A stretch of 64,000 nt of DNA from Streptomyces nigrescens. GTDB lineage: Bacteria; Actinomycetota; Actinomycetes; Streptomycetales; Streptomycetaceae. The stretch is taken from the NCBI GenBank assembly GCA_024349765.1, contig AP026073.1, positions 4,402,001 to 4,466,000 on the forward strand. Reading direction: 5' to 3'. Below, piece after piece: positions 15,958-48,518 of this stretch. Within the stretch, counting starts at the first letter, position 1; every line of letters begins with the position of its first letter. Below the pieces are notes generated by a model that was not told the DNA's origin, did no database searches, and saw only the letters and a list, made by a program, of their open reading frames with translations. The position numbers were made by a program, and so were the translations under genes.

Positions 15958-17469
15958 TTATCCCCCGGCGCCGGAGGCGCTGGCCTCGCCCTCTGCCGGG
16001 CGGTCGTCCGCGCCGTCGTCCTCGTCCGCCTCCCGGTGCGGCGCGCCACCGTCCAGGTAGCGCTCGTCGATCCGCTTCGGCCCGAACGGCCACTCCTTCT
16101 CGACACGGGCCCAGAGGAGGAACGCCACGACACCCGCGGCGACCCAGGCAAGCGACCATTCGATGGGGTGCCGGCCGGGCGCGTTGCGGTCCGCGTAGCC
16201 GTAGATCACCAGCCAGCCGACGAGCGCGAGGAGTCCGGGGAGCGGGTAGAGCCACATCCGGTAGGGGCGGCGCAGGGCCGGCTGGCGGCGGCGCAGCACG
16301 GTGACCGCGGCGACCTGGGCCAGCGACTGCACGATCACCATGACGGTGGTGAGCAGCTGGATGATGGTGGCGAGGTCGGTGTGCCGGCCCAGGAGGAAGC
16401 CGGCCGCCATCACCACCCCCATGGTGAGCAGGCCGAGTACCGGGAACCGGTGGCGCGGGTGGAGGGTGCCGTACGGGCGGAAGAAGACCCGGTCGCGGGC
16501 GGCGTCGTAGGGGACCCGGGAGCCGCCGAGGAGCCCGGTGAGGACGGAGGCGACGGCGGTGACGAGGATGAGCACGGTGACGGTGTCGGCCGCGCCCCTG
16601 CCCCAGGCCCGTTCCAGCACGGCGGAGGCGACGGACGAGGACGCCGTCGAGTGGGGGTCGAGCATCTCCCGCCAGTCGACGACGCCGAGCGTGCCGATCT
16701 GCAGCAGCAGGTAGATGGCCATGATGCCGAGGATGGCGGCGATGATCGCGCGCGGGACGGTCCGGCCGGGGTCGCGGATCTCGGCGCCCATGTAGGCGAT
16801 GGTGTTGTAGCCGAGGTAGTCGTAGATGCCGATGGTCAGCCCGGCCGCGAAGCCCACCCAGAAGTGACCAGCCGTCAGCTCGAAGGCGTGCGCGGGGTAG
16901 GTGAAGGCACGCTCCGCGCTGAAGTGGGTGAACGCGGCGACGATGACGAGGACGACGGCGGCGATCATCACCGCCCAGAGGACGACGGTGAGCCGGGCGA
17001 TCCGCTCCACCCGCCGCCACAGCAGCACCATGATGCCCACGGTGACCACGAGTCCGACGGCGTCGCCCTGGCCCTGGCTCATCCCCGGCCACAGATAGCC
17101 CAGGTACTGCACGAAGCCGATCACGCCGGTGGACATCCCCAGCGGGATGAACAGCATGGCCGTCCAGACGAACAGGAACGGCATCAACTTGCCGGTGCGG
17201 TACTGGAACGCCTGCCGCAGATAGACGTAGCTGCCGCCGGCGCCGGGCAGCGAGGCGCCCAGCTCGGCCCAGACCAGCCCGTCCGCGAGCGCAAGGACCG
17301 CGCCGGCGAGGAACCCGACGACGGCCTGCGGTCCGCCGAAGGCGGCGACCATCAGCGGGATGGTGACGAACGGGCCGATGCCGCACATCTGGCTCATGTT
17401 GATGGCGGTGGCCTGGAACAGTCCGATCCGGCGGACGAATCCCACGTGCTGGTCGAGGAGTTCAGGCAT
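15958..17469 (-). CDS. APC-superfamily amino acid permease
   Basis: A 503-residue integral membrane transporter with about twelve hydrophobic helices. The APC signature in the first helix reads INMSQMCGIGPFVTIPLM, the unwound glycine-rich helix that binds substrate. A cytoplasmic tail rich in Asp/Glu ends the protein. It likely imports or exchanges amino acids or polyamines by proton coupling; the specificity cannot be read from the sequence. The gene is 63 bases from the hydrolase start and probably has its own promoter. Confidence 0.88.
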   Translation of the reverse strand: MPELLDQHVGFVRRIGLFQATAINMSQMCGIGPFVTIPLMVAAFGGPQAVVGFLAGAVLALADGLVWAELGASLPGAGGSYVYLRQAFQYRTGKLMPFLFVWTAMLFIPLGMSTGVIGFVQYLGYLWPGMSQGQGDAVGLVVTVGIMVLLWRRVERIARLTVVLWAVMIAAVVLVIVAAFTHFSAERAFTYPAHAFELTAGHFWVGFAAGLTIGIYDYLGYNTIAYMGAEIRDPGRTVPRAIIAAILGIMAIYLLLQIGTLGVVDWREMLDPHSTASSSVASAVLERAWGRGAADTVTVLILVTAVASVLTGLLGGSRVPYDAARDRVFFRPYGTLHPRHRFPVLGLLTMGVVMAAGFLLGRHTDLATIIQLLTTVMVIVQSLAQVAAVTVLRRRQPALRRPYRMWLYPLPGLLALVGWLVIYGYADRNAPGRHPIEWSLAWVAAGVVAFLLWARVEKEWPFGPKRIDERYLDGGAPHREADEDDGADDRPAEGEASASGAGG

Positions 17470-17636
17470 CGGCGGCCCCCTTCTCGTGCCGGCACGGCGG
17501 AGCTTCGGCCCCCGCCGCTCGCCGGTGCGGCACCCGTCCGCCCCGCCACAGGCTGACACGCCCGGCGCCCCCGCGCACCGGTACGGACCGGACTTTCCGC
17601 CGCGCCCGGCCGCTCTCCCGCAGGGCCCGCCGCCGG

Positions 17637-18272
17637 TCAGACCTCCCCGGCCTCCCCGTACGCCTCGCCGCCGAGCTCCAGCCGGGCCGTGCCGGCCGTC
17701 GCGTCCGCGAGCCAGCCGCGGAACGCGTCCAGCTCGGCCTCCGGCAGCCCGACCTCGATGCGCACCTCCGCGCCGTACGTCACCTCCCGCACCGCGCGGC
17801 CCGTGGTCCGCAGGTCGTTCTCGACCCGGCCGGCCCGCTGGTGGTCGACGGTGACCGTGGCCAGCCGGAAGCGCTGCCGGGTGACCGTGCCCAGCGTGTC
17901 CAGGGCCTCGCCGACGACGCCGGCGTAGGCGCGTATCAGCCCGCCGGCGCCGAGCTTGACGCCGCCGAAATAGCGGGTGACGACGGCGACGACGTAGCGC
18001 ACCTCGCGGCGGAGCAGCATCTGCAGCATCGGGACGCCCGCGGTGCCGCCCGGCTCGCCGTCGTCGCTGGCCTTCTGCACGCCGCCGTCGGCACCGAGGA
18101 CGTACGCCCAGCAGTGGTGGCGTGCGGTGGGGTGCTCCTTGCGGATGCGCGCGATGAAGTCCTGCGCCTCGGTCTCGTTCGCGACGGGCGCGAGCGCGCA
18201 GAGGAAGCGGGACTTGTTGATCTCGATCTCGTGGACACCCTCGCGCGCGAGCGTGCGGTACTGCTCCTGCAT
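17637..18272 (-). CDS. YigZ/IMPACT family protein (UPF0029)
   Basis: A 211-residue protein with the two-domain YigZ layout. An N-terminal IMPACT domain (about 15-125) contains ASDDGEPGGTAGVPML and RYFGGVKLGAGGL; a C-terminal DUF1949 ferredoxin-like domain follows. Eukaryotic IMPACT homologues modulate translation control, while the bacterial role is unsettled. Length is typical. It stands alone, read toward the permease. Confidence 0.92.
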   Translation of the reverse strand: MQEQYRTLAREGVHEIEINKSRFLCALAPVANETEAQDFIARIRKEHPTARHHCWAYVLGADGGVQKASDDGEPGGTAGVPMLQMLLRREVRYVVAVVTRYFGGVKLGAGGLIRAYAGVVGEALDTLGTVTRQRFRLATVTVDHQRAGRVENDLRTTGRAVREVTYGAEVRIEVGLPEAELDAFRGWLADATAGTARLELGGEAYGEAGEV

Positions 18273-18536
18273 CGCTCCAGCCTATGCGGCCCCTGTGACA
18301 GCGGGCTCCCGGTCCCGGCCGCCGGCGCCGCGCTGGGCCGTCCGCCAAAAGGGCGCGGGGGTCCGCCGGACGGGCGCAGTCCGCACGGCCAGGCGGCGTA
18401 CCCGCCCCGTCCGCACGGTGCGTCGGGGAGACGTCGGGGCCGGCCGTGGGCACTGTGAGGCCAGTGCGAGAGCCTCGTGTTTCCGGGGCCCCGCGCGTAC
18501 GCGCAGGAACGGAACGGCGGGTTGGCGGAGGGCTGC

Positions 18537-19328
18537 ATGGAAGAGAGCACACAGTCGGCGATGACGGCGGGCGAGCCCCTGACGGGCGAGGACATGCCCG
18601 AGCCCCCGCCGGAGGTCGTCGAGGCGGCACGCGAGGCGCCCGACCACTGGCTGGCCCTGGTGGATCTGACGTGGCAGGGCGAGGGGCCGCCCCCGCTCTG
18701 GGCGCTGATCGGGCAGTGGCGCTCCGGGCCGACCGGCGAGATCGAGGAGTGGCGGGACAACCCGGAGTACCGGCCGTCGCCGCAGATGCTGGAGTGGTCG
18801 GAGCCGGCCGATCCGGTGGACCGCGCGGTGCAGCTGGCCGCGACCGGTTACGGGCCCGGGCAGGACGTCACCGAGGCGCTGGCGCGGGCCGAGGTGTCCG
18901 TCCTGGTCACCGCGACCGGCACCCCGCTGGCCGCCGCCTCGCCCGAGGGCACCCCGGTGATCCCGGTCTACACCTCGGAGGGCTACCTGGAGTCGGTGGG
19001 ACGGCTGCTGTACGACCGGCGCCCGGTGGCCGACCTCGTCGACCAGCTTCCGCCGGGCCACGCGCTGTACCTCAACCCGACCGGGCCGGTGAGCATGCTG
19101 GTCGACACCGAGGAACTGCGTGCCGCGCTGGCCGGGACGTCCGCCCAGGCTCCGGAGGGGGCCCGGGAGGCGGCCGCGAACGGGGCGCTGCGGCCCGGCA
19201 CCGGGGCCGGCGGCGCCGAGCCGGTGGGCGGCGGCCGGGCGATCGGCAAGCCGGCCCGGGCCGCCACCGGCAGCACCGTCGTCGGCGCCGGGCTGGCCGG
19301 CGGCACAGTCGTCCGCGCCCGCCGCTGA
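18537..19328 (+). CDS. SseB-like / type VII secretion-associated protein
   Basis: A 263-residue soluble protein. Residues about 10-85 form an acidic region with LWALIGQWRSGPTGEIEEWRDNPEYRPSP, and 90-215 resemble the SseB N-terminal fold (VLVTATGTPLAA..., VIPVYTSEGYL). A Gly/Ala-rich tail follows. Similar proteins occur beside ESX/type VII secretion genes in actinobacteria, but no secretion gene is seen here. The ATG at 18537 follows GGAGGG; an ATG at 18477 is an in-frame alternative. Confidence 0.6.
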   Translation: MEESTQSAMTAGEPLTGEDMPEPPPEVVEAAREAPDHWLALVDLTWQGEGPPPLWALIGQWRSGPTGEIEEWRDNPEYRPSPQMLEWSEPADPVDRAVQLAATGYGPGQDVTEALARAEVSVLVTATGTPLAAASPEGTPVIPVYTSEGYLESVGRLLYDRRPVADLVDQLPPGHALYLNPTGPVSMLVDTEELRAALAGTSAQAPEGAREAAANGALRPGTGAGGAEPVGGGRAIGKPARAATGSTVVGAGLAGGTVVRARR

Positions 19329-21723: not shown

Positions 21724-21746
21724 AACTACCGCCTAGCGCGGTAGTT
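21724..21746. promoter_or_regulatory. Operator-like palindrome
   Basis: A perfect 9-bp inverted repeat, aactaccgc and gcggtagtt, flanks five bases. It lies at the end of the XRE regulator gene and upstream of the leftward small-gene cluster. A half-site (cggtagtt) occurs at 21699. Similar motifs recur at 29967 and 30699. Repressor binding is inferred. Confidence 0.55.
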
Positions 21747-22983
21747 AGCCCGAAATCCCCAGGTGAGACGCCATCAGACGCATATCCTTCGTCAGGGTCC
21801 GCCGGCGCCTTTTCAGGATGTCTTGCATCAGCTGCCGTGCAATCGACTGGTGCTTAAGCCACTCGGGCGCCTCGATGCGAAGCCCCGTCAGCTCGTCCAT
21901 GGCGTCTTGATGAGAACCCAGCAGTGCATGAGCACGGACCACGTCCAACCGGTGACGGTTCCAGCTGCTAGGGCTAGGTCGGCCAAGACGTCGCAACGCG
22001 GCTGTCGCAAGCGGACCTTGATCCGAATCCCTAAGGACTCCGCGGGCATCACGCTTAAGGGATAGATCTTCGATGGTCTTGACGGCCGCCGTAGCGGGCC
22101 CGAACGTGCCCCAGTGAGTGCGGAAGTTGCTGGATTCACGCCCCAGTGCGGACGCTGCGCTAGCAGCCATGCGGCGAGCGTCCCGGGCGTCTTCCGCCCG
22201 GTTGTTCCTGACGGCTGCGGAGGCAATGCGGAGTGCCAGCTCACCCCATGCAGCCAACTGTCCCGGGGTGGCAGTCGACATGCGGGGCTCCACGACGTCG
22301 GCCGTCGTAACTGCCAGCTCCTGCGCTTCGGAGAAGCGATCTTGTCGGAGCAGCAGCCAGCACAGTCCAATAACGCCGACGGCGGCCGTGATCTGGTCCT
22401 CCGCTGCGCGGGCGTCCCGGATGCCGGCAGAGAGCGCCTGATAGGCCAAGTCGTACTGACGTACCTGCGTCAGATACTTGCCGGTGACCAACTGCGCGCG
22501 AGCGTGGGTGCTGAGCATCGCCTGACGACTGGCATCGTCCTCCGCCGCGAACAGCGCGGCTTGAGTGCCGGCCAGGACGCCAGGCAGGCATCGGGCCATC
22601 TCGTCGTACTCGTCGGCGTGGTAATGGGTGTGCGCTGCGTCAATCTGGCGCTCCAGGTCAGCCCGACTTGCCACCGTGACCGACGTCGCCGTCGCATCGA
22701 CGAGGCCGATCGGCGGCATGAGCTGACGCCGTAGCGCCAGGAGGTAGCGGCCGTTGCCTTTGTCGTCCGGCACCGGGTGCGGAGAGCCGGACGCAAAGAG
22801 TGCTTCTGTGTCCACGCCCAAAGCGTGAGCCAACCGGGCGAAGGTTTCCATCCTGACCGACCCGCCTTGTTCGATCTTGCCGACGGTGGTAGTGGAAAGC
22901 CCGGCCGCTGCTGCTAGTTCCTCTTGAGAGAGCCCAGCTCGGCGGCGCAGGCTACGGATGTTGTTGGAGATCTGCGGAGACAT
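21745..22983 (-). CDS. XRE-family regulator with TPR-like C-terminus (repressor candidate)
   Basis: A 412-residue protein. An N-terminal lambda-repressor-type HTH (5-60, RRAGLSQEELAAAAGLSTTTVGKIEQG) is joined to a long helical region resembling the tetratricopeptide repeats of Streptomyces BldD/RapA-like regulators. The C-terminal basic helix is KRRRRTLTKDM. It is the only full-length HTH repressor candidate in the left regulatory region, so a role in lysogeny is likely, though such proteins are also common host regulators. A terminator lies upstream, so it has its own promoter at about 22990-23030. Confidence 0.8.
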   Translation of the reverse strand: MSPQISNNIRSLRRRAGLSQEELAAAAGLSTTTVGKIEQGGSVRMETFARLAHALGVDTEALFASGSPHPVPDDKGNGRYLLALRRQLMPPIGLVDATATSVTVASRADLERQIDAAHTHYHADEYDEMARCLPGVLAGTQAALFAAEDDASRQAMLSTHARAQLVTGKYLTQVRQYDLAYQALSAGIRDARAAEDQITAAVGVIGLCWLLLRQDRFSEAQELAVTTADVVEPRMSTATPGQLAAWGELALRIASAAVRNNRAEDARDARRMAASAASALGRESSNFRTHWGTFGPATAAVKTIEDLSLKRDARGVLRDSDQGPLATAALRRLGRPSPSSWNRHRLDVVRAHALLGSHQDAMDELTGLRIEAPEWLKHQSIARQLMQDILKRRRRTLTKDMRLMASHLGISG

Positions 22984-24867: not shown

Positions 24868-24897
24868 AGTATGACGAACACTTACCGTGCGGCACAA
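24868..24897 (-). promoter_or_regulatory. Early promoter-like element A1
   Basis: Minus-strand TTGTGC (-35, plus positions 24892-24897) and CATACT (-10, 24868-24873) are spaced 18 bases apart. The surrounding TTAGCCACTTGTGCCG block is shared with the copies at 25607 and 28848. Confidence 0.6.
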
Positions 24898-24951
24898 GTG
24901 GCTAAGCCAAAGAACCGCGAAGATATTCACGGGACTTGGCGACCGCAGAAC

Positions 24952-25606: not shown

Positions 25607-25636
25607 ACTATGACAGACATTAGCCGTACGGCACAA
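25607..25636 (-). promoter_or_regulatory. Early promoter-like element A2
   Basis: TTGTGC at 25631-25636 and CATAGT at 25607-25612 (minus strand) are spaced 18 bases apart, with the shared TTAGCCACTTGTGCCG block. Confidence 0.6.
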
Positions 25637-25640
25637 GTGG

Positions 25641-25832
25641 CTAAGTCCAAGAACCGCGAAACGACTCACGGACCACGGCCACCAGCGACCCACCGGGCAG
25701 CGTCACCACCCATCCCCCACGCACCCGCGTCCGTTCGTACTGCCGACGCACGGCCTGGCGGAGGAAGTGACGTTGCTCGAAGTCGCCGACAACGCCCGTT
25801 ACGCCGGACTCGAAGGTGATGCGGTACTTCAC
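25641..25832 (-). CDS. Hypothetical small phage protein
   Basis: A 63-residue basic protein (GTG start, MKYRITFESG...) with alternating hydrophobic strands. The start overlaps the preceding stop by GTGA. Not recognised. Confidence 0.55.
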   Translation of the reverse strand: MKYRITFESGVTGVVGDFEQRHFLRQAVRRQYERTRVRGGWVVTLPGGSLVAVVRESFRGSWT

Positions 25833-28128: not shown

Positions 28129-28179
28129 CTCTCCTCCTACGGCCTGCCATCCTCAGCGCGGGTAGGCCACCTCCCGCGG

Positions 28180-28195
28180 ACGCCCCGAAGGGCGT
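28180..28195 (-). terminator. Short hairpin terminator
   Basis: Stem acgccc / gggcgt with loop cgaa lies just after the stop of the gene at 28202. Confidence 0.55.
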
Positions 28196-28201
28196 TTCGG
28201 C

Positions 28202-28807
28202 TCACTGTCCGTTGTCGACGATCTCCGCGTCGGGCGACCATCCGCCGTCCTTCCGGACCGGGACCGTAGCGATCCAGTTCGTCCCGGGCTCCGTGTTGCG
28301 CACGCCAGCCTCGGCGGGCACGCGGACCGTCCCGACGTAGTAGCCCTTCTTGGCGTTGTTGCGGCGACGCGTCTCGGGGTTCTTCGCCTTGGACTCGTTG
28401 AACCAGCCGATACGGCGTCCCCGCTCGTTCAGGAGCTCCCAGTACCACCCGTACTGGCCGCGCTCGCGCCGGGCCGGCACGAGGGTGCCCTCAAGGTCGA
28501 ACAGGGCCGGAAACTCCCACTTGCCGCCCTGTGCGACGATGTCTGCGTCGAGGCTGTAGGCCTGCGCGGAGACGCCAGCTGCCCATTGGGTGAGAAACCC
28601 GTCGTTGTCGCAGCGCCGGAAGCTCTCTTCCCGCGAGGATTCACACGCCTCAGCCCGCTCGCGCAGTGCCTTCGCTTCTGCCTCACGCTTGCGCTGCGCC
28701 TCCGCCGTGCGCTGCGCCTTCGCTTCTGCCTCCTTGCGCTGACGCTCCTTGCGGAGGGCGCGCATGATGCCGTCGCCGTTGAGTTCGGAGAAGGGGACGG
28801 TGACCAT
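28202..28807 (-). CDS. Hypothetical protein with N-terminal coiled coil
   Basis: A 201-residue protein. Residues 15-65 are a highly charged Lys/Arg/Glu/Ala coiled coil (KERQRKEAEAKAQR). The C-terminal domain is beta-rich with many aromatics (GQYGWYWELLNERGRR). It is a single gene between element A3 and a terminator. Not recognised. Confidence 0.65.
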   Translation of the reverse strand: MVTVPFSELNGDGIMRALRKERQRKEAEAKAQRTAEAQRKREAEAKALRERAEACESSREESFRRCDNDGFLTQWAAGVSAQAYSLDADIVAQGGKWEFPALFDLEGTLVPARRERGQYGWYWELLNERGRRIGWFNESKAKNPETRRRNNAKKGYYVGTVRVPAEAGVRNTEPGTNWIATVPVRKDGGWSPDAEIVDNGQ

Positions 28808-28847: not shown

Positions 28848-28876
28848 AATATTGCAGAGCGATCCGTACGGCACAA
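28848..28876 (-). promoter_or_regulatory. Early promoter-like element A3
   Basis: TTGTGC at 28871-28876 and AATATT at 28848-28853 on the minus strand are spaced 17 bases apart, with the shared TTAGCCACTTGTGCCG block. The leader to the ATG at 28807 is about 35 bases. Confidence 0.6.
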
Positions 28877-28914
28877 GTGGCTAAGCGAGAGAACCGCGAG
28901 TCGCTTCGCGGGTC

Positions 28915-29055
28915 TCAGTGGTCGGCGTACCAGTCCGCGGCCGTGGCGGACTCCAGCGCCTCCACGCGAAGGACGGTCTCCTCTCCGTAGAGCGCGGCTT
29001 CGTCGGGGCGCACGCCCTGGACGTCGTAGTCATCGAGGCTGGGAAGACGGGTCAT
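28915..29055 (-). CDS. Small very acidic protein
   Basis: A 46-residue protein, MTRLPSLDDYDVQGVRPDEA..., strongly acidic. GGAG precedes the ATG. It lies directly downstream of the sigma-like gene and may be co-transcribed with it. Acidic size and position would suit an anti-sigma or DNA-mimic role, but this is only a guess. Confidence 0.6.
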   Translation of the reverse strand: MTRLPSLDDYDVQGVRPDEAALYGEETVLRVEALESATAADWYADH

Positions 29056-29082: not shown

Positions 29083-29829
29083 TCACGCGGCGAGGTTGTT
29101 GTTCGCGGCGACGGACCGGGCGCTGATCAAGCCCCGACTACGGAGGTTGCGCAAGACGCCGGGCTTGACCTGGAGCTGGTTCGCGGCGTCGACGTCGGGG
29201 ACGGGCGACATGCCCACACCGTGGAAGGCGCGAAGCGCGTATGCCTGTCGGGCTGGAATCTGCTCCATCAGCCATCGGGCCAGCGCGCGGCGCTCCGCGG
29301 GGTCGGTGACCTCCGACGTGGGGTCGGCGATGGTGTCGGCCAGCGTGGCTCCGCGCTCGTCGTCGGCGGACATGGGCGCCTCCAGCGACTCCATGCCGGC
29401 CAGCGCCTCCACCACGGCGAGCACGCTTCCCTTGTCCACCTCTGCCGCCAGTGCGCGGCTCGCGGCCTCTACGTCGCCATCCTGGCGGGCCAGTTCAGCC
29501 CGGACGCGAATCACGGTGCCGGCACTGATCGTCAGTCCGGTGCTCATGCGCAACCATTCCTCGGTGATCGCACGGCGCAGGTAGACGTAGGCGGCCGTGG
29601 TCAGGGAGCCTCCGCCGACCTCCGCGTCGTAGCTCCGCAGCCGCTCCAGGATCACGGCCCGACCTTCCTGGAGCAGATCCTCCGCGGCCTCCCGGCTGGC
29701 TCCCGGGGCGACGGACGACACGATGGACCGGATCAGGTAGTCGTGAGCGCTGACCACCTCCCACAGGGCCGACTCATTGCCCGCCTGTGCTTCGCGAATC
29801 AGTTCGGGGGTAACCGTGGAGTGGCTCAT
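29083..29829 (-). CDS. Phage-encoded sigma-70-like factor
   Basis: A 248-residue protein resembling an ECF-sized sigma factor. Region 2-like helices lie at about 25-95 (AAEDLLQEGRAVILERLRSYD, then AAYVYLRRAITEEWLR). A variable linker follows. A region 4-like HTH is at the C-terminus (ARQAYALRAFHG; VDAANQLQVKPGVLRNLRSRG). The spacing and helices fit the sigma fold, but the match is distant. The ATG follows GAGGAG. The 33-bp element B1 lies 28 bases upstream, so it may drive its own expression. Redirecting host RNA polymerase to phage promoters is the likely role. Confidence 0.7.
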   Translation of the reverse strand: MSHSTVTPELIREAQAGNESALWEVVSAHDYLIRSIVSSVAPGASREAAEDLLQEGRAVILERLRSYDAEVGGGSLTTAAYVYLRRAITEEWLRMSTGLTISAGTVIRVRAELARQDGDVEAASRALAAEVDKGSVLAVVEALAGMESLEAPMSADDERGATLADTIADPTSEVTDPAERRALARWLMEQIPARQAYALRAFHGVGMSPVPDVDAANQLQVKPGVLRNLRSRGLISARSVAANNNLAA

Positions 29830-29856
29830 GACGTTCTCCTCTGTGAGTGCCTGACG

Positions 29857-29889
29857 AGTTACGTGCGCCAGGGGCGAAAATGTCTCGCG
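29857..29889 (-). promoter_or_regulatory. Conserved phage promoter-like element B1 (sigma-like gene)
   Basis: First of four near-identical 33-bp elements. On the plus strand it begins agttacgtgcgc and ends aaaatgtctcgcg. Read on the minus strand, GACATT (-35 position) and GTAACT (-10 position) are spaced 16 bases apart. The expected start of transcription is about 20 bases before the ATG at 29829. Confidence 0.65.
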
Positions 29890-29966
29890 GGAGTTGCAAG
29901 ATTTTTTGGGAGGTAGTCGGGGGCTGTTTCTGAGCAGCACTGGCCAACGCTTGGCGCTGTGTGATT

Positions 29967-30022: not shown

Positions 30023-30061
30023 GTCAGTCGGTGATGGAGAACCGCGAGTCGCTTCGCGGGT

Positions 30062-30289
30062 CTAGTTGAGCGGGAGATCCTTAACGGGGACTCCGAAGCA
30101 CTCGGCAAGGGCGACGTCAGAGAGCGCATCGGCGCACGACTGCCAGCCGGCCACGCAGTACAGGACGCTGACCGTCAGCCAGTCGACCCGGGTAGCGATG
30201 ACGGGCAGGAGGCCATAGAGTCCGGCCAGCTCACACAGCGTCCCCCGCTGTTCTTCCGTGCCCTGCGGTCCAGTAAGTACGCTGATCAT
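30062..30289 (-). CDS. Hypothetical phage protein
   Basis: A 75-residue hydrophobic protein (LCELAGLYGLLPVIATRVDWLTVSVLYCVAGW), mostly helical with four Cys. It overlaps the upstream stop by ATGA. Not recognised. Confidence 0.6.
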   Translation of the reverse strand: MISVLTGPQGTEEQRGTLCELAGLYGLLPVIATRVDWLTVSVLYCVAGWQSCADALSDVALAECFGVPVKDLPLN

Positions 30290-38822: not shown

Positions 38823-38848
38823 AAAGAAGCGCGAGTTGACTCGCGGTA

Positions 38849-39112
38849 CTACTCCGGGTCGCCGATGACTACCACATGTGCTGCCGCGATGACCTGCGGC
38901 GTCAGGGTCTGGCGTGCGATGAAGCCACTGTCCCGCCCCGTCGGTTGGACACGCAGCTTGGGGACCACGCGGCCGGTGCTCTTGTCGGTCAGCCGCTCCA
39001 GTACCTTCGCCTCAGTGTTGCGAACTACGTTCCCTTGGCGGGTCGGGTAGGCGATCATGGAGCCGACGCGAATTTCGGCGCCGGTGAAGTCGCACAGACG
39101 ACTCTTGCCCAT
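38849..39112 (-). CDS. Hypothetical phage protein
   Basis: An 87-residue beta-rich protein (FTGAEIRVGSMIAYPTRQGN; VVPKLRVQPTGR) similar in style to small SH3-like barrels. Not recognised. Confidence 0.65.
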   Translation of the reverse strand: MGKSRLCDFTGAEIRVGSMIAYPTRQGNVVRNTEAKVLERLTDKSTGRVVPKLRVQPTGRDSGFIARQTLTPQVIAAAHVVVIGDPE

Positions 39113-39685: not shown

Positions 39686-40426
39686 TCAGGCAGCCTTGCT
39701 CAGGTCCGCGGCAGCCTCAGCGGCGAGCCCGGTGACCTTCACGACGGGCTTGTTGTACGAGACGTCGCGGCCGGCCTTCGTGGTGTACGAGACGTTCTCA
39801 ATGGAGAGCGTCGCCCGGACGGCCTTGCCACCCTTGCCGTCCTCGTCCGCGCCGCCGACCTCGTCGACGTCAGCGATGATCGTGTGGAGGATCTTGACCA
39901 GCTCCCACGAGCCGGAGTTGAAACGGAAGATGCCCAGCTCCGGGGCGTCGGCCAACTTGAACTGAATGTCAACCGACGGCTTCGGCCCGCGGCCCGACTT
40001 CGCCCGGTCCTTGCGGTCCTGGAAGGCCGGCGGGCAACCACACTTCTGGCCCTTGTCCTCGTCGGGGCTGAGGAACTCGACGCCGTCGCAGTGGTGTACG
40101 AGACCACTCATACCGAAGAGCTTCATGCTCGCGTCGATCTTGGAACTGTTCTCGATGATGATCTCAACCGACGCGGAGTCGGTCAGGATTTCGATGTTGT
40201 CTTCCTTGTCGGTGTCCCACTCCTCAGCGACACCGCCCAGCAGCTCCGCGACACGGGCGGCCGTGGTGGGGTCGCCGGTGGTGACGCGCCACTCATTCAG
40301 GCTCTCGGGCTGCTTCCCGACCAGCCGGCCGGAGCGGAAGCGGCCGACGAAGTCGTCGGAGAACTGACGCGCCTTCGGGGCGGCGTCGGGGTCGGTCTCC
40401 CAGATGCGGCGCAGGTTGTTCGCCAT
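39686..40426 (-). CDS. Gp3-like recombination directionality factor (candidate)
   Basis: A 246-residue protein with the layout of phiC31 Gp3-like directionality factors: IWETDPDAAPKARQFSDDFVGRFRSG at the start, then PESLNEWRVTTGDP and VAELLGGVAEEWDT. A Cys pair (CGCPP) lies in the middle. These proteins bind the phage serine integrase and switch it to excision. The identification is by motif memory, not a search. The promoter-like element B2 and a 5' hairpin precede it, so timed expression during induction is likely. Confidence 0.65.
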   Translation of the reverse strand: MANNLRRIWETDPDAAPKARQFSDDFVGRFRSGRLVGKQPESLNEWRVTTGDPTTAARVAELLGGVAEEWDTDKEDNIEILTDSASVEIIIENSSKIDASMKLFGMSGLVHHCDGVEFLSPDEDKGQKCGCPPAFQDRKDRAKSGRGPKPSVDIQFKLADAPELGIFRFNSGSWELVKILHTIIADVDEVGGADEDGKGGKAVRATLSIENVSYTTKAGRDVSYNKPVVKVTGLAAEAAADLSKAA

Positions 40427-40468
40427 GTGTGTGAATGCCTCTCGTCGCAGCGTGTGATTCGCGGTACG

Positions 40469-40512
40469 ACGAGAGGGCGGCGCGCGGATGGTCGTCCGTG
40501 CCGCCCTCTCGT
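40469..40512 (-). promoter_or_regulatory. 5' leader hairpin of the directionality factor gene
   Basis: A perfect 13-bp stem (acgagagggcggc / gccgccctctcgt) encloses an 18-base loop. It would begin at the predicted 5' end of the mRNA, between element B2 and the gene. It may stabilise or attenuate the transcript. Confidence 0.55.
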
Positions 40513-40517
40513 GATGT

Positions 40518-40550
40518 AGTTACGTGCGCTGAGCGCGAAAATGTCTCGCG
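40518..40550 (-). promoter_or_regulatory. Conserved phage promoter-like element B2
   Basis: Second 33-bp element copy, differing from B1 only in the variable centre and driving the directionality factor gene. Minus-strand GACATT and GTAACT have the same spacing as in B1. Confidence 0.65.
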
Positions 40551-40575: not shown

Positions 40576-40953
40576 TCATGAGTCGTCCGCCAGTCGCCAG
40601 ACTTCGCCGTCCTCGTCCGCGCCCATGTACTCCAGCCGCGGAGTAGCGCGAAGCGACTCGCGGCTCTCCTCCAGCCGGGCCCGCTGCAGCTCTGCCCGCA
40701 GGCGAGCTATCTCCTGGTCCTTCAGCTCCAGGGCCTCCGTCGCGTGAAGGGAGTTCTCCCCGTCGCGTCGGCGGGCGGAGAGCCAGGCCAGGCGGTACCG
40801 GTCGCGCGCCTCCCCAAGCTCCTCCGCATGCTGCTCCGCGGCTTGCTCACGGTCGATCGCAGCGTTCGCGCGGCCGTTCTCTGCGCGGAGGAGATCCCGA
40901 AGCTGCGCTATCTCCGCGTCCCGCGCTTCCACCATGGCGGACCAGTTAGCCAT
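40576..40953 (-). CDS. Coiled-coil protein
   Basis: A 125-residue almost wholly helical protein (RDAEIAQLRDLLRAEN; ALELKDQEIARLRAELQRAR). TGATG overlap with the gene upstream. The end, RLEYMGADEDGEVWRL, is acidic. Not recognised. Its stop lies close to element B2. Confidence 0.65.
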   Translation of the reverse strand: MANWSAMVEARDAEIAQLRDLLRAENGRANAAIDREQAAEQHAEELGEARDRYRLAWLSARRRDGENSLHATEALELKDQEIARLRAELQRARLEESRESLRATPRLEYMGADEDGEVWRLADDS

Positions 40954-44509: not shown

Positions 44510-44934
44510 GCGGTCTCTCCCTCCAGCTCCACCAAGCGCTTGGCCTGAGCAACGACAAGATCCTTCAGTTCGCGGATCTCGTTGCGATTGCAGGCGTCGA
44601 CGTCATCCAACGCACGGAGCGTGCCCTCGTAGCCCGCGCGCTCCGACTCCCACTGCTCACGCTCGGCACGAAGTTCGCGGTGATACTCCGTGAGATCTCT
44701 CCGGGCCGTCAGGAGATCGGCCTTCGTGCGGACGAGTTCGCGCTCCAGGGCGTCCGCCCGCGCCGATCGGTCGGGGCAGCGGCTAACCAGCGCCGCGAAC
44801 GACGCGTAGTCACGGTCACCCAGCACGACGCTTATCGCTTTACGCGGCGCGGGAAGGTAGTCCGTCGCCCAGTCCAGTACGTCCGGGAAGCGAAGCGTAA
44901 CGGTGCCGGCCTCGTAGTTCTGGTGGATCTCCAT
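44506..44934 (-). CDS. Coiled-coil phage protein
   Basis: A 142-residue protein. A short beta region (GTVTLRFPDVLDWATDYLP) precedes a long coiled coil (DALERELVRTKADLLTARRDL and on to the end). TGATG coupling to the exonuclease gene. Confidence 0.62.
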   Translation of the reverse strand: MEIHQNYEAGTVTLRFPDVLDWATDYLPAPRKAISVVLGDRDYASFAALVSRCPDRSARADALERELVRTKADLLTARRDLTEYHRELRAEREQWESERAGYEGTLRALDDVDACNRNEIRELKDLVVAQAKRLVELEGETA

Positions 44935-45737
44935 CACGCCGCCCTCCGCTGCGTCCCGGTCTCCTGCTCTCCGCCGCTCGCGATTGGCCGGCCGACCACG
45001 CCCTTCTTGCCGTCGCGCTCCCACGTGAAGACCTCACGCAGGGACTTGAAGACCTCGAAGACCTTCGGCCCGCACTCCACGGGGACGAACGACCATCCCT
45101 CCGGGCGGACGTGGAGGACGGCACCGCCGGCCAGCTCCGGGACGTCGACGCTCTCCCCGTCAGCCGCCTTGATGATGCGGTTCGCGTAGCGGTAGGCGGA
45201 GAGCTGGAGGGCCACCGAGTCGTAGACGCTCCTCGATGTCTTCCAGTCCAGGACGACGGTCTCCCCGTCAACCTTGGCGATGGCGTCGAAGCTGCCGGCG
45301 TACTGGTGCTCGTCGCTCCAGACGGTCTCTTCCAAGTGCAGGAACTCCGGCTGGATCTCCTGAAGGAACTCGTCGAACCACCTGACGTGAGGCTTCACGT
45401 CGGCGTGAACGTGCCGAAGGTTGATCGTCTCTCCGCGCGCCTGGCGCTCGAAGAGGTCGTGAGCGGCCGACCCCAAGTCGCTCGCGGCCTTCGACTTCCG
45501 CATGTGCGCGTTCTTCAGGTAGTCGATCGCGCCGGCAGGGTCGCGCTGGCACAGCTGCGACACGATGTCCCAGTTGGTCACGGCCGCTTCCGCGGACTCC
45601 TTCGCCGCCCAGAAGGTCAAGTAGTTCTTGGGCAACATCCCCACCACGCTCGTCACGCCCGGGACCTTGATCGCCCCGTCGTCGGGGTTGATGTAGAAGC
45701 GGCTCCCGCCGCGCTGCAGTGTGCGTACTCCGGCCAT
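44934..45737 (-). CDS. PD-(D/E)XK exonuclease (RecB/Cas4-like)
   Basis: A 267-residue nuclease of the type used in phage recombination. Its motifs are DLGSAAHDLFERQ, the catalytic Asp in QYAGSFDAIAKVDG, and VVLDWKTSRS (the DxK pair), followed by QLSAYRYAN. It would process DNA ends in single-strand annealing or Cas4-like roles. Element B3 lies 32 bases upstream. It leads the run of small genes down to 43399. Confidence 0.85.
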   Translation of the reverse strand: MAGVRTLQRGGSRFYINPDDGAIKVPGVTSVVGMLPKNYLTFWAAKESAEAAVTNWDIVSQLCQRDPAGAIDYLKNAHMRKSKAASDLGSAAHDLFERQARGETINLRHVHADVKPHVRWFDEFLQEIQPEFLHLEETVWSDEHQYAGSFDAIAKVDGETVVLDWKTSRSVYDSVALQLSAYRYANRIIKAADGESVDVPELAGGAVLHVRPEGWSFVPVECGPKVFEVFKSLREVFTWERDGKKGVVGRPIASGGEQETGTQRRAA

Positions 45738-45768: not shown

Positions 45769-45801
45769 AGTTACGTGCGCTGGGAGCGAAAATGTCTCGC
45801 G
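45769..45801 (-). promoter_or_regulatory. Conserved phage promoter-like element B3
   Basis: Third copy of the 33-bp element, upstream of the exonuclease gene. Same GACATT/GTAACT spacing. An A-rich block (AAAGATCTTG) lies 16 bases upstream of the conserved part. Confidence 0.65.
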
Positions 45802-47455: not shown

Positions 47456-47508
47456 GTCGTCCCGCGAAGCGACTCGCGGTTCTCCGTCAAGGGGGCGCAA
47501 ACACAAAA

Positions 47509-47838: not shown

Positions 47839-48456
47839 TCAGGCGAAGGGGAGGGAACGGGCGTCGTGCCGGCGGGACTCGAAGCGCTCCACCTTTCCGG
47901 CGAAGTGCTGGACTTCGCGGAGGAAGTGCGCGCGGTCGCCGTCGTTGTGGATCAGGTAGTCCGCGTTCTCTTCCGTCAGCTGCTCCGACTCGTGCGTCAT
48001 CCGAGGCGTCCCGGGCCGGTCGATGTAGACGAGGTGCCAGCCGGCTTTGCGGAGGGCGAAGACTTCGTTGGGATAGCGGACGTCAGTGATGACCACCGGG
48101 CGGCCGAAGCGCTCGTTGACGTCGGCCGCCTTCTTCAGGGCCTGGCGAAGCCAGAAGTCCGGGTCCAGGGCGCGGATGCTGGCGCCCAGCTCCTGGAGGA
48201 TGCGGCGGGCCTCCGGCTGCTCCTTCGTCCGCTCCCAGCCGAACTCCCGCACTGCATGACTCAGGCGGTAGTCGTCGTGGTAGCTAGGGTCCTCGTGCTC
48301 CGGGTGGGCGCTGTCCAGGATTGGGTCAAGGTGAAGCGCCGCTTCCTTCAGCGGGTCCGCGAAGGCCACACGCTCGTAGCCCCGGTGCTCGACGAGCCAC
48401 TTCCCCGCCGTGTCCTTGCCGGAGCCCGCCAGGCCCATGATTCCGATGTTCGGCAT
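47839..48456 (-). CDS. Deoxynucleoside monophosphate kinase
   Basis: A 205-residue P-loop kinase of the phage dNMP kinase type. Walker A is MGLAGSGKDTAGK near the start, the lid has RLSHAVREFGWERTKEQPEARR, and VVITDVRYPNE is the Walker B-like strand. It phosphorylates dNMPs for phage replication. Element B4 lies 29 bases upstream. Confidence 0.9.
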   Translation of the reverse strand: MPNIGIMGLAGSGKDTAGKWLVEHRGYERVAFADPLKEAALHLDPILDSAHPEHEDPSYHDDYRLSHAVREFGWERTKEQPEARRILQELGASIRALDPDFWLRQALKKAADVNERFGRPVVITDVRYPNEVFALRKAGWHLVYIDRPGTPRMTHESEQLTEENADYLIHNDGDRAHFLREVQHFAGKVERFESRRHDARSLPFA

Positions 48457-48485: not shown

Positions 48486-48518
48486 AGTTACGTGCGCTGA
48501 GGGCAAGAATGTCTCGCG
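48486..48518 (-). promoter_or_regulatory. Conserved phage promoter-like element B4
   Basis: Fourth copy of the 33-bp element. It differs from the others at a few internal positions (gcaagaatg). Minus-strand GACATT and GTAACT spacing is kept. It drives the dNMP kinase unit. Confidence 0.62.

Follow-up and report, generated by a model that had tools for sequence, protein, structure and literature searches.

A prophage of Streptomyces nigrescens encodes a small sigma-like protein behind a DNA element that recurs in front of three other phage genes. This raises the question of whether the protein reads the element as a promoter class of its own, and whether the arrangement works as an autoregulated switch into lytic growth. 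The window considered here, a stretch of 64,000 nucleotides (AP026073.1, positions 4,402,001 to 4,466,000), holds a prophage oriented leftward within a chromosome of Streptomyces type. Among named DNA sequences, phage Samy of S. ambofaciens, which is annotated with phiC31 relatives, gives the best match. A host-type permease gene lies at 15958-18630, and no integrase was identified among the selected window frames that were scanned. The identities of the four genes, which an earlier note had read from the letters as sigma-like factor, directionality factor, exonuclease and dNMP kinase, are confirmed by family searches:

29083 to 29829, minus strand: sigma70-family gene, 248 amino acids, ATG at 29829; homologue of Samy SAMYPH_68 (44% identity).
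39686 to 40426, minus strand: recombination directionality factor (RDF), Gp3-like (E 1.4e-14).
44934 to 45737, minus strand: PD-(D/E)XK exonuclease (E 2.3e-5).
47839 to 48456, minus strand: deoxynucleoside monophosphate kinase, dNMPK (E 7.1e-16).

The likely start of the sigma gene is the ATG at 29829, preceded by GAGGAG. The interval 29083 to 29889, earlier taken as the gene, does contain it, yet it comprises the gene plus its upstream element; a 285-aa reading frame from 29940 would swallow that element. The protein matches PHROG 351 (E 9.9e-20) and passes no NCBIfam cut-off. Its match to the Pfam region 2 model (E 0.0038) lies under the Pfam cut-off, and it has no match to Pfam region 4. 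At E≤0.01, Pfam Sigma70_r2 is found in 33 of 34 family members and the general sigma70-ECF model TIGR02937 in all 34, the window protein falling below the cut-off of the latter, while the Pfam region 4 model matches 0 of 34. An alignment of the family profile to RpoD (best E 5.5e-15) runs through regions 2 to 4, covering region 2 and spanning the helix-turn-helix of region 4.2; between the two, a stretch resembling region 3 and an SLDAP motif like that of region 3.2 also align with RpoD. The region 2 helices noticed previously are thus present, at a sub-cut-off score in the window protein, and the region 4-like helices are seen through the family profile, on which this call rests because the Pfam region 4 model matches no member.

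Exact copies of both element ends (AGTTACGTGCGC and AATGTCTCGCG) occur at four sites of the window, all in one orientation and reading leftward:

29857 to 29889, minus strand: sigma promoter element, -35 GAGACA at 29886-29881, 17-nt spacer, -10 CGTAAC at 29863-29858; putative autoregulation.
40518 to 40550, minus strand: candidate promoter element of the RDF unit, -35 at 40547-40542, -10 at 40524-40519.
45769 to 45801, minus strand: candidate promoter element of the exonuclease unit, -35 at 45798-45793, -10 at 45775-45770.
48486 to 48518, minus strand: candidate promoter element of the dNMPK unit, -35 at 48515-48510, -10 at 48492-48487.

When the 33-bp consensus is searched in the organism's own genome (9,326,742 bases) with up to 3 mismatches, the four window elements are recovered with no further match, and the reversed pattern used as a control gives 0 matches. 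The claim of a 33-bp element with common ends at four sites therefore stands, and the described placement of about 30-90 bases before a leftward start agrees with the measured distances from the -10-like end to the start codon, which are 28, 92, 32 and 30 nt for sigma, RDF, exonuclease and dNMPK, respectively. In the leftward direction all four copies have the layout CGC-GAGACA-17 nt-CGTAAC-T, and each reads as a sigma70-type promoter composed of GAGACA, a 17-nt spacer and CGTAAC. An ECF (group 4) sigma with an ECF promoter, suggested by the CGTAAC half, was considered and ruled out by the sigma70 layout, the 17-nt spacer and the presence of a region 3, which ECF factors, having domains 2 and 4 only, lack. 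The 92-nt gap before the RDF gene holds a GC-rich inverted repeat (GAGAGGGCGGC..GCCGCCCTCTC) in the leader at 40427-40518 on the minus strand, a possible attenuator.

Relatives of the sigma protein were sought in 392 Streptomyces genomes. Full-length relatives (39-49% identity) are present in the own genome and 10 others, and two further genomes gave weak, partial matches. A scan of viral sequences with the single sigma protein found no relative, whereas alignment queries did find relatives; a scan of a plasmid collection found no sigma relative. The comparison set accordingly consists of 12 phages, namely the window, Samy and 10 Streptomyces prophages. The gene order dNMPK-exonuclease-RDF-primase-polymerase-sigma is kept in the 10 prophages and in Samy. 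A loose count of a 30-bp motif gave mostly noise in this GC-rich DNA and was replaced by a comparison of the regions upstream of the four anchored genes. Within each of the 12 phages, one common element is found before the sigma, RDF, exonuclease and dNMPK genes, with scores of 68-97; 60 shuffles per phage gave means of 53.7-55.5 and a largest value of 61. The -35 hexamer ends in ACA in 44 of the 48 copies, the exceptions being the four copies of prophage G096, (C/A)AGATN, and a CATAAC-like -10 follows at 17-nt spacing in 48/48. The element-finding script presupposed the 17-nt spacing and favoured ACA and CATAAC, so these three features are partly built in; positions 1 and 2 of the -35 hexamer are free of this. 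With a matrix made for each phage from its own four copies, no fifth site reaches 60% of the weakest copy's score in the range scanned (40 kb for the 10 prophages, the first 50 of 61 kb for Samy and 64 kb for the window). Since the four sites are found by construction, the result here is the absence of a fifth. The RDF gene has the longest gap between element and start of the four genes in 12/12 phages.

The four copies within one phage largely share one version of the element, and the versions differ from phage to phage as dialects. The -35 hexamer is GAGACA in the window and G082, CTGACA in G358 and G321, GTCACA in G152, G155 and Samy, CGAACA in G307 and G361, and GAAACA in G179, while G187 has two copies with GAAACA and two with GTGACA, and G096 has the (C/A)AGATN given above. 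The bases preceding the -10 vary too (GGATTACGA in Samy, CCCCA in G082, GCGCA in the window). Inside some phages the -10 differs among copies (CATAAC, CACAAC, CATTAC), and given these within-phage differences its variation is not all dialect. CGTAAC is found in the window only, in all four copies, the remaining 44 of 48 having A at the second place. In G152, G307, G321 and L001, the sigma and dNMPK copies have a weaker -10 (CATTAC, CACAAC, CACTAC) than those of RDF and exonuclease (CATAAC), perhaps for a graded response.

These dialects bear on the possibility that the elements are read by HrdB or by an alternative sigma of the host. The -35 is related to TTGACA and the spacer is 17 nt, as in housekeeping promoters. 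On the other hand, the -10 boxes CATAAC and CGTAAC lack the consensus T at -7, and in HrdB, the host sigma compared, 10 of the 11 prophage hosts show 100% identity between region 2.3 and the C-terminus (the fragment of the G152 host was unread, and the host of Samy was outside the comparison), although the dialects differ. Variation of the host primary sigma can thus not make the dialects, and any covariation between phage sigma and element would, in a host-sigma reading, have to come from shared descent.

The covariation of sigma residues with promoter bases was therefore analysed in a larger set. The scans supplied 34 loci and later 83 more, and a family-wide genome search added 3 strong matches. 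Removal of 12 sequences that were more than 95% identical to another reduced 46 sigma sequences to 34 non-redundant ones, of which 31 are usable; L056 has no upstream DNA, and L066 and L073 have no clear element. Among the 31, L058 keeps a clear -10 only and G096 has its non-ACA -35. Mutual information over all columns of these 31 sigmas selects residue 232 for the first position of the -35 hexamer (-35.1), 228 for -35.2 and 227 for -35.5.

To correct for kinship, nulls were simulated on a tree built without region 4, using 36 phages and 232 sigma columns. The best columns are then residue 232 for -35.1, residue 228 followed by 225 for both -35.2 and -35.3, and residue 227 for -35.5. All of the best -35 columns (232, 228, 228, 227) lie within the recognition helix. 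For position -14 the best columns are residues 55, 111 and 107, the last two in region 3.0 and the top one, residue 55, outside it. The base at -35.1 changed about 11 times on the tree and that at -35.2 about 10 times.

From the alignment of the family profile with RpoD we take residues 227, 228 and 232 to be R588, Q589 and K593 in E. coli numbering, residues 107 and 111 to be E458 and K462, and residue 79 to be Y430. The equivalents of residues 227, 228, 232 and 107 are listed contacts of E. coli sigma70. R584, E585, R586, R588, Q589 and K593 are among the residues that interact with the -35 box (PMC4943231), -33 and -31 are contacted via E585/R588 and R584 and -14 via E458 (PMC10911233), and Y430 stacks on the -11A (PMC4496690); the equivalent of residue 111 is not named among the sigma70 contacts in the parts consulted of these three papers. 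This agreement between covarying and contacting residues is our strongest argument that the sigma protein reads the elements.

Five rules summarize the correspondence. Rule A (G at -35 with R/K/Q/N/H at the 593 equivalent, C with D/E/A/T/V/S) holds in 34 of 36 phages, as do rule B (T at -34 with Q/K/R at the 589 equivalent, another base otherwise) and rule C (Arg at the 588 equivalent with ACA). Rule E (C at -14 with R111, another base with H111) holds in 32 of 32 applicable cases, 4 being not applicable. Rule D, on residue 79, holds in 36/36 with the His of L079 counted as aromatic, and lends no statistical support because the sole departing case is the window and one His is counted in this way. 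The rules are broken by L051 (A and B), L058 (A), G096 (B), and L048 and L084 (C). G096 and L058 are the two phages without the R588 equivalent and also the two without an ACA or ACG core, in agreement with rule C.

The rules were fixed before later scans brought held-out phages. Eight new subfamily members were obtained, of which five were used (L160 duplicates L052, and L162, 92% identical to L073, and L083 are without a clear element); five more distant sigmas were left unscored. In the five held-out sigmas, which are 32-64% identical to the nearest one in the set, rules A, B and D hold in 5/5, rule C in 4/5 and rule E in the 3/3 applicable cases. The held-out elements and that of L067 were placed by eye. 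No clear element of the bipartite form was found in L066, L073, L083 and L162, which are left out of the counts.

As a control, the columns of the polymerase and primase were treated in the same way in the 30 phages with all alignments. Under the tree null, the best sigma column scores 6.4 at -35.1 (residue 232), against 3.7 for polymerase and 5.1 for primase (column 202), and 6.4 at -14 (residue 111), against 3.3 and 4.2. At -35.2 the sigma score is 4.5 (228) against 3.1 and 4.5, with primase column 62 in a tie, and at -35.3 it is 4.3 (234, then 228 at 4.2) against 3.8 and 4.3, again a tie with primase. A plain shuffle null (60 shuffles) gives 7.1 against 4.9 and 5.0 at -35.1, 10.0 against 4.9 and 7.2 at -14, and 6.1 (sigma 225) against 5.7 (primase 721) at -35.2. 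At -35.5, a position that varies in two phages only, primase 263 (24.2) and sigma 215 (14.4) exceed sigma 227 (5.2). The control thus gives a clear outcome at -35.1 and -14 and a weak one at -35.2, -35.3 and -35.5. The weak positions leave some room for a host sigma and covariation by descent, but the covariation survives the tree-based nulls and, together with the constancy of HrdB, this renders such an explanation very improbable.

The same data bear on the alternative that the elements are operators of another phage regulator, a repressor or activator, with the sigma-like protein acting elsewhere. An imperfect GCGA..TCGC repeat is seen in 3/4 copies of the window element, and phiC31 and Samy have separate palindromic repeats, likely repressor sites, near their early genes. 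In the dNMPK copy, however, the repeat is broken, and on visual inspection most other dialects do not keep it. Furthermore, the elements are promoter-like, with -35-like and -10-like halves at sigma70 spacing, and an unrelated binding protein would not give covariation with the residues that contact -35 and -14 in sigma70. We consider the operator alternative to have only a slight chance of being correct. The earlier proposal, in which the sigma factor has an autoregulated class of promoters to itself, is strongly supported by the recurrence of the same four genes in 12/12 phages and by the recognition-helix covariation across 36 phages, and on this comparative evidence the 248-aa sigma70-family protein very likely reads the four elements.

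In the mechanism that we propose, the sigma protein would direct the host core RNA polymerase to four prophage promoters, those of its own gene and of the RDF, exonuclease and dNMPK unit heads. The region 4.2 helix would read the -35 GAGACA, region 3.0 the bases immediately upstream of the -10, and region 2 would open the -10 box CGTAAC. Snowballing is expected because the sigma activates its own gene, so that a little sigma protein could grow into full expression of the excision and replication genes, as an autoregulated early switch. The anatomy of the elements, the conserved set of four genes and the covariation of residues with bases are observed; we infer from them that the elements are active as promoters and the protein is their factor, and further that relief of lysogenic control acts as the trigger and lytic growth is the result. 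The placement of RDF, exonuclease and dNMPK under one control would fit induction. An early lytic switch is, in our assessment, the probable role of the sigma, held with less assurance than its reading of the elements. The protein could instead read the elements without being such a switch, being expressed in lysogens or serving another function, and the structural genes within the window indeed have no element. However, RDF, exonuclease and dNMPK act in excision and replication, the RDF promoter belongs to the set in 12/12 phages, and constant expression of the RDF of a serine integrase would be expected to destabilise the prophage. A non-switch role is therefore unlikely, although less so than the two alternatives above.

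What may start the loop is suggested by the DNA upstream of the sigma promoters. A TGTGA-N6-TCACA palindrome (at most 2 mismatches in 10) is found in 34 of 36 sigma upstream regions and is absent from those of the window and L084. In 32 of the 36 (e.g., L001, L053, L085) the distance from its centre to the -12 base downstream is 41.5 or 42.5 bp; in L077 it is 52.5, and L050 has a match at 97.5. Counted by gene in the 12 phages and phiC31, it precedes sigma in 12 of 13, RDF in 2, exonuclease in 2, and dNMPK and primase in 0. In phiC31, GTGACCCCGGTCAC lies 74 bp upstream of the gp12 start. Among 46 distant loci, examined for this site alone, 27 have some match within 330 bp, some of them off the usual place, compared with 145 of 1840 random windows. 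BldD was considered as the binder of TGTGAC..GTCACA and rejected; the half-site spacing misfits the BldD consensus, while that of Crp fits. The strict form of the S. coelicolor Crp consensus, given as GTG(N)6GNCAC in PMC10033298, is present upstream of the -35 in 27/36. In our reading, host Crp may tie the expression of sigma to the state of the host in most of these phages, and the fixed place of the site in most relatives points to a possible route from host physiology into the switch. Where the relatives have the palindrome, the window sigma promoter carries AAAAAATCTT (29898-29907), which resembles AAAGATCTT, the consensus just upstream of the exonuclease -35 boxes in the 12 phages.

Phage sigma factors are a known kind: SPO1 gp28 and gp33/34 and T4 gp55 redirect the host polymerase to phage promoters. 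Those of SPO1 and T4, which are lytic phages, act on middle or late genes, whereas the present family belongs to temperate phages and its sigma stands behind a promoter shared with RDF. RpoD, SigF/B/G and FliA/WhiG (groups 1-3) resemble it in the aligned regions 2-3-4 and in the -35/-10 with 17-nt spacer, and differ from it by the low similarity and by its -10 CATAAC/CGTAAC.

The closest known arrangement is that of the phiC31 early promoters, reportedly described by Ingham et al. in 1993. In phiC31, the homology of gp12 to the window sigma family spans regions 2 to 3.2 (hhalign probability 93.7, E 1.9e-7); gp12 has 396 aa and its match stops before region 4, whereas the window sigma has 248 aa. 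In both phages the homologous sigma-like gene follows the DNA polymerase gene downstream, and a repeated element stands before RDF, exonuclease, dNMPK and sigma, the phiC31 box GGGTTGCCGACTYCCTT preceding gp12, gp3 (RDF), gp1 (exonuclease), gp52 (dNMPK) and at least 6 other genes. The promoter sequence and architecture are not the same: phiC31 has a single 17-bp box, conserved but lacking a clear -10 partner, in at least 10 gene-upstream copies, and the window has the bipartite GAGACA-N17-CGTAAC in 4. In the open literature, searched by terms, we recognised nothing on what reads the phiC31 early promoters. The window system is thus a diversified relative of the phiC31 gp12/early-promoter arrangement.

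Samy has the same order of dNMPK, exonuclease, RDF, primase, polymerase and sigma and the same four promoter-bearing genes as the window, but its dialect is GTCACA...GGATTACGA-CAYAAC rather than GAGACA...GCGCA-CGTAAC, and it has the Crp-type site before sigma that the window lacks. The consulted part of the Samy paper (PMC11302927) does not discuss the phage's own sigma, and its main text is without the word "promoter".

New here are the bipartite promoter class, the phage-specific dialects that track the reading residues of the sigma, and the G at -11 of the window together with A79. The window is the only case with G at -11, in all four promoters, and the only one that lacks the Y430 equivalent, having A79 instead. 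It is conceivable, and we advance it tentatively, that temperate phages of Streptomyces carry a family of rapidly diverging sigma/promoter pairs insulated from one another, and that the window has shifted the melting base, which is normally obligatory, G(-11) being matched by A79 in place of the aromatic residue that stacks on -11A. If so, the G(-11)/A79 pair would represent a naturally altered promoter-opening step in addition to a different reading of the -35; the pair bears on how sigma factors begin to melt DNA. If the proposal as a whole is true, these phages offer a natural collection of sigma factors, each matched to its promoters, within a single host genus whose housekeeping sigma is identical, a directly testable residue-to-base code for regions 4.2 and 3.0, candidate orthogonal expression pairs for Streptomyces, and a proposed reader for phiC31-type early promoters.

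Several other features of these phages were observed. A type II hammerhead ribozyme (28138-28202, minus strand; 46.5 bits against a gathering score of 37) follows the sigma gene downstream and has the same orientation. A CGCGAGTCGCTTCGCGG-like hairpin is repeated at 28889-28915, 30037-30063, 38824-38850, 40641-40667 and 47463-47496; these may be terminators without a T run, and one of them precedes the RDF element by about 90 bp. Three dispersed repeat copies containing CGTRCGGCACAAGTGGCTAAG are found at 24870-24944, 25609-25683 and 28849-28923. Phage-specific palindromes are repeated in Samy (L001; CGCGTAAAACGACTCACGCG, e.g., at 44673) and in G082 (L034; containing AGTCGACT) and are likely operators of the phages' own repressors. 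A 412-aa HTH regulator at 21745-22983 on the minus strand (phrog_5823, E 5.3e-120) is a candidate lysogeny repressor.
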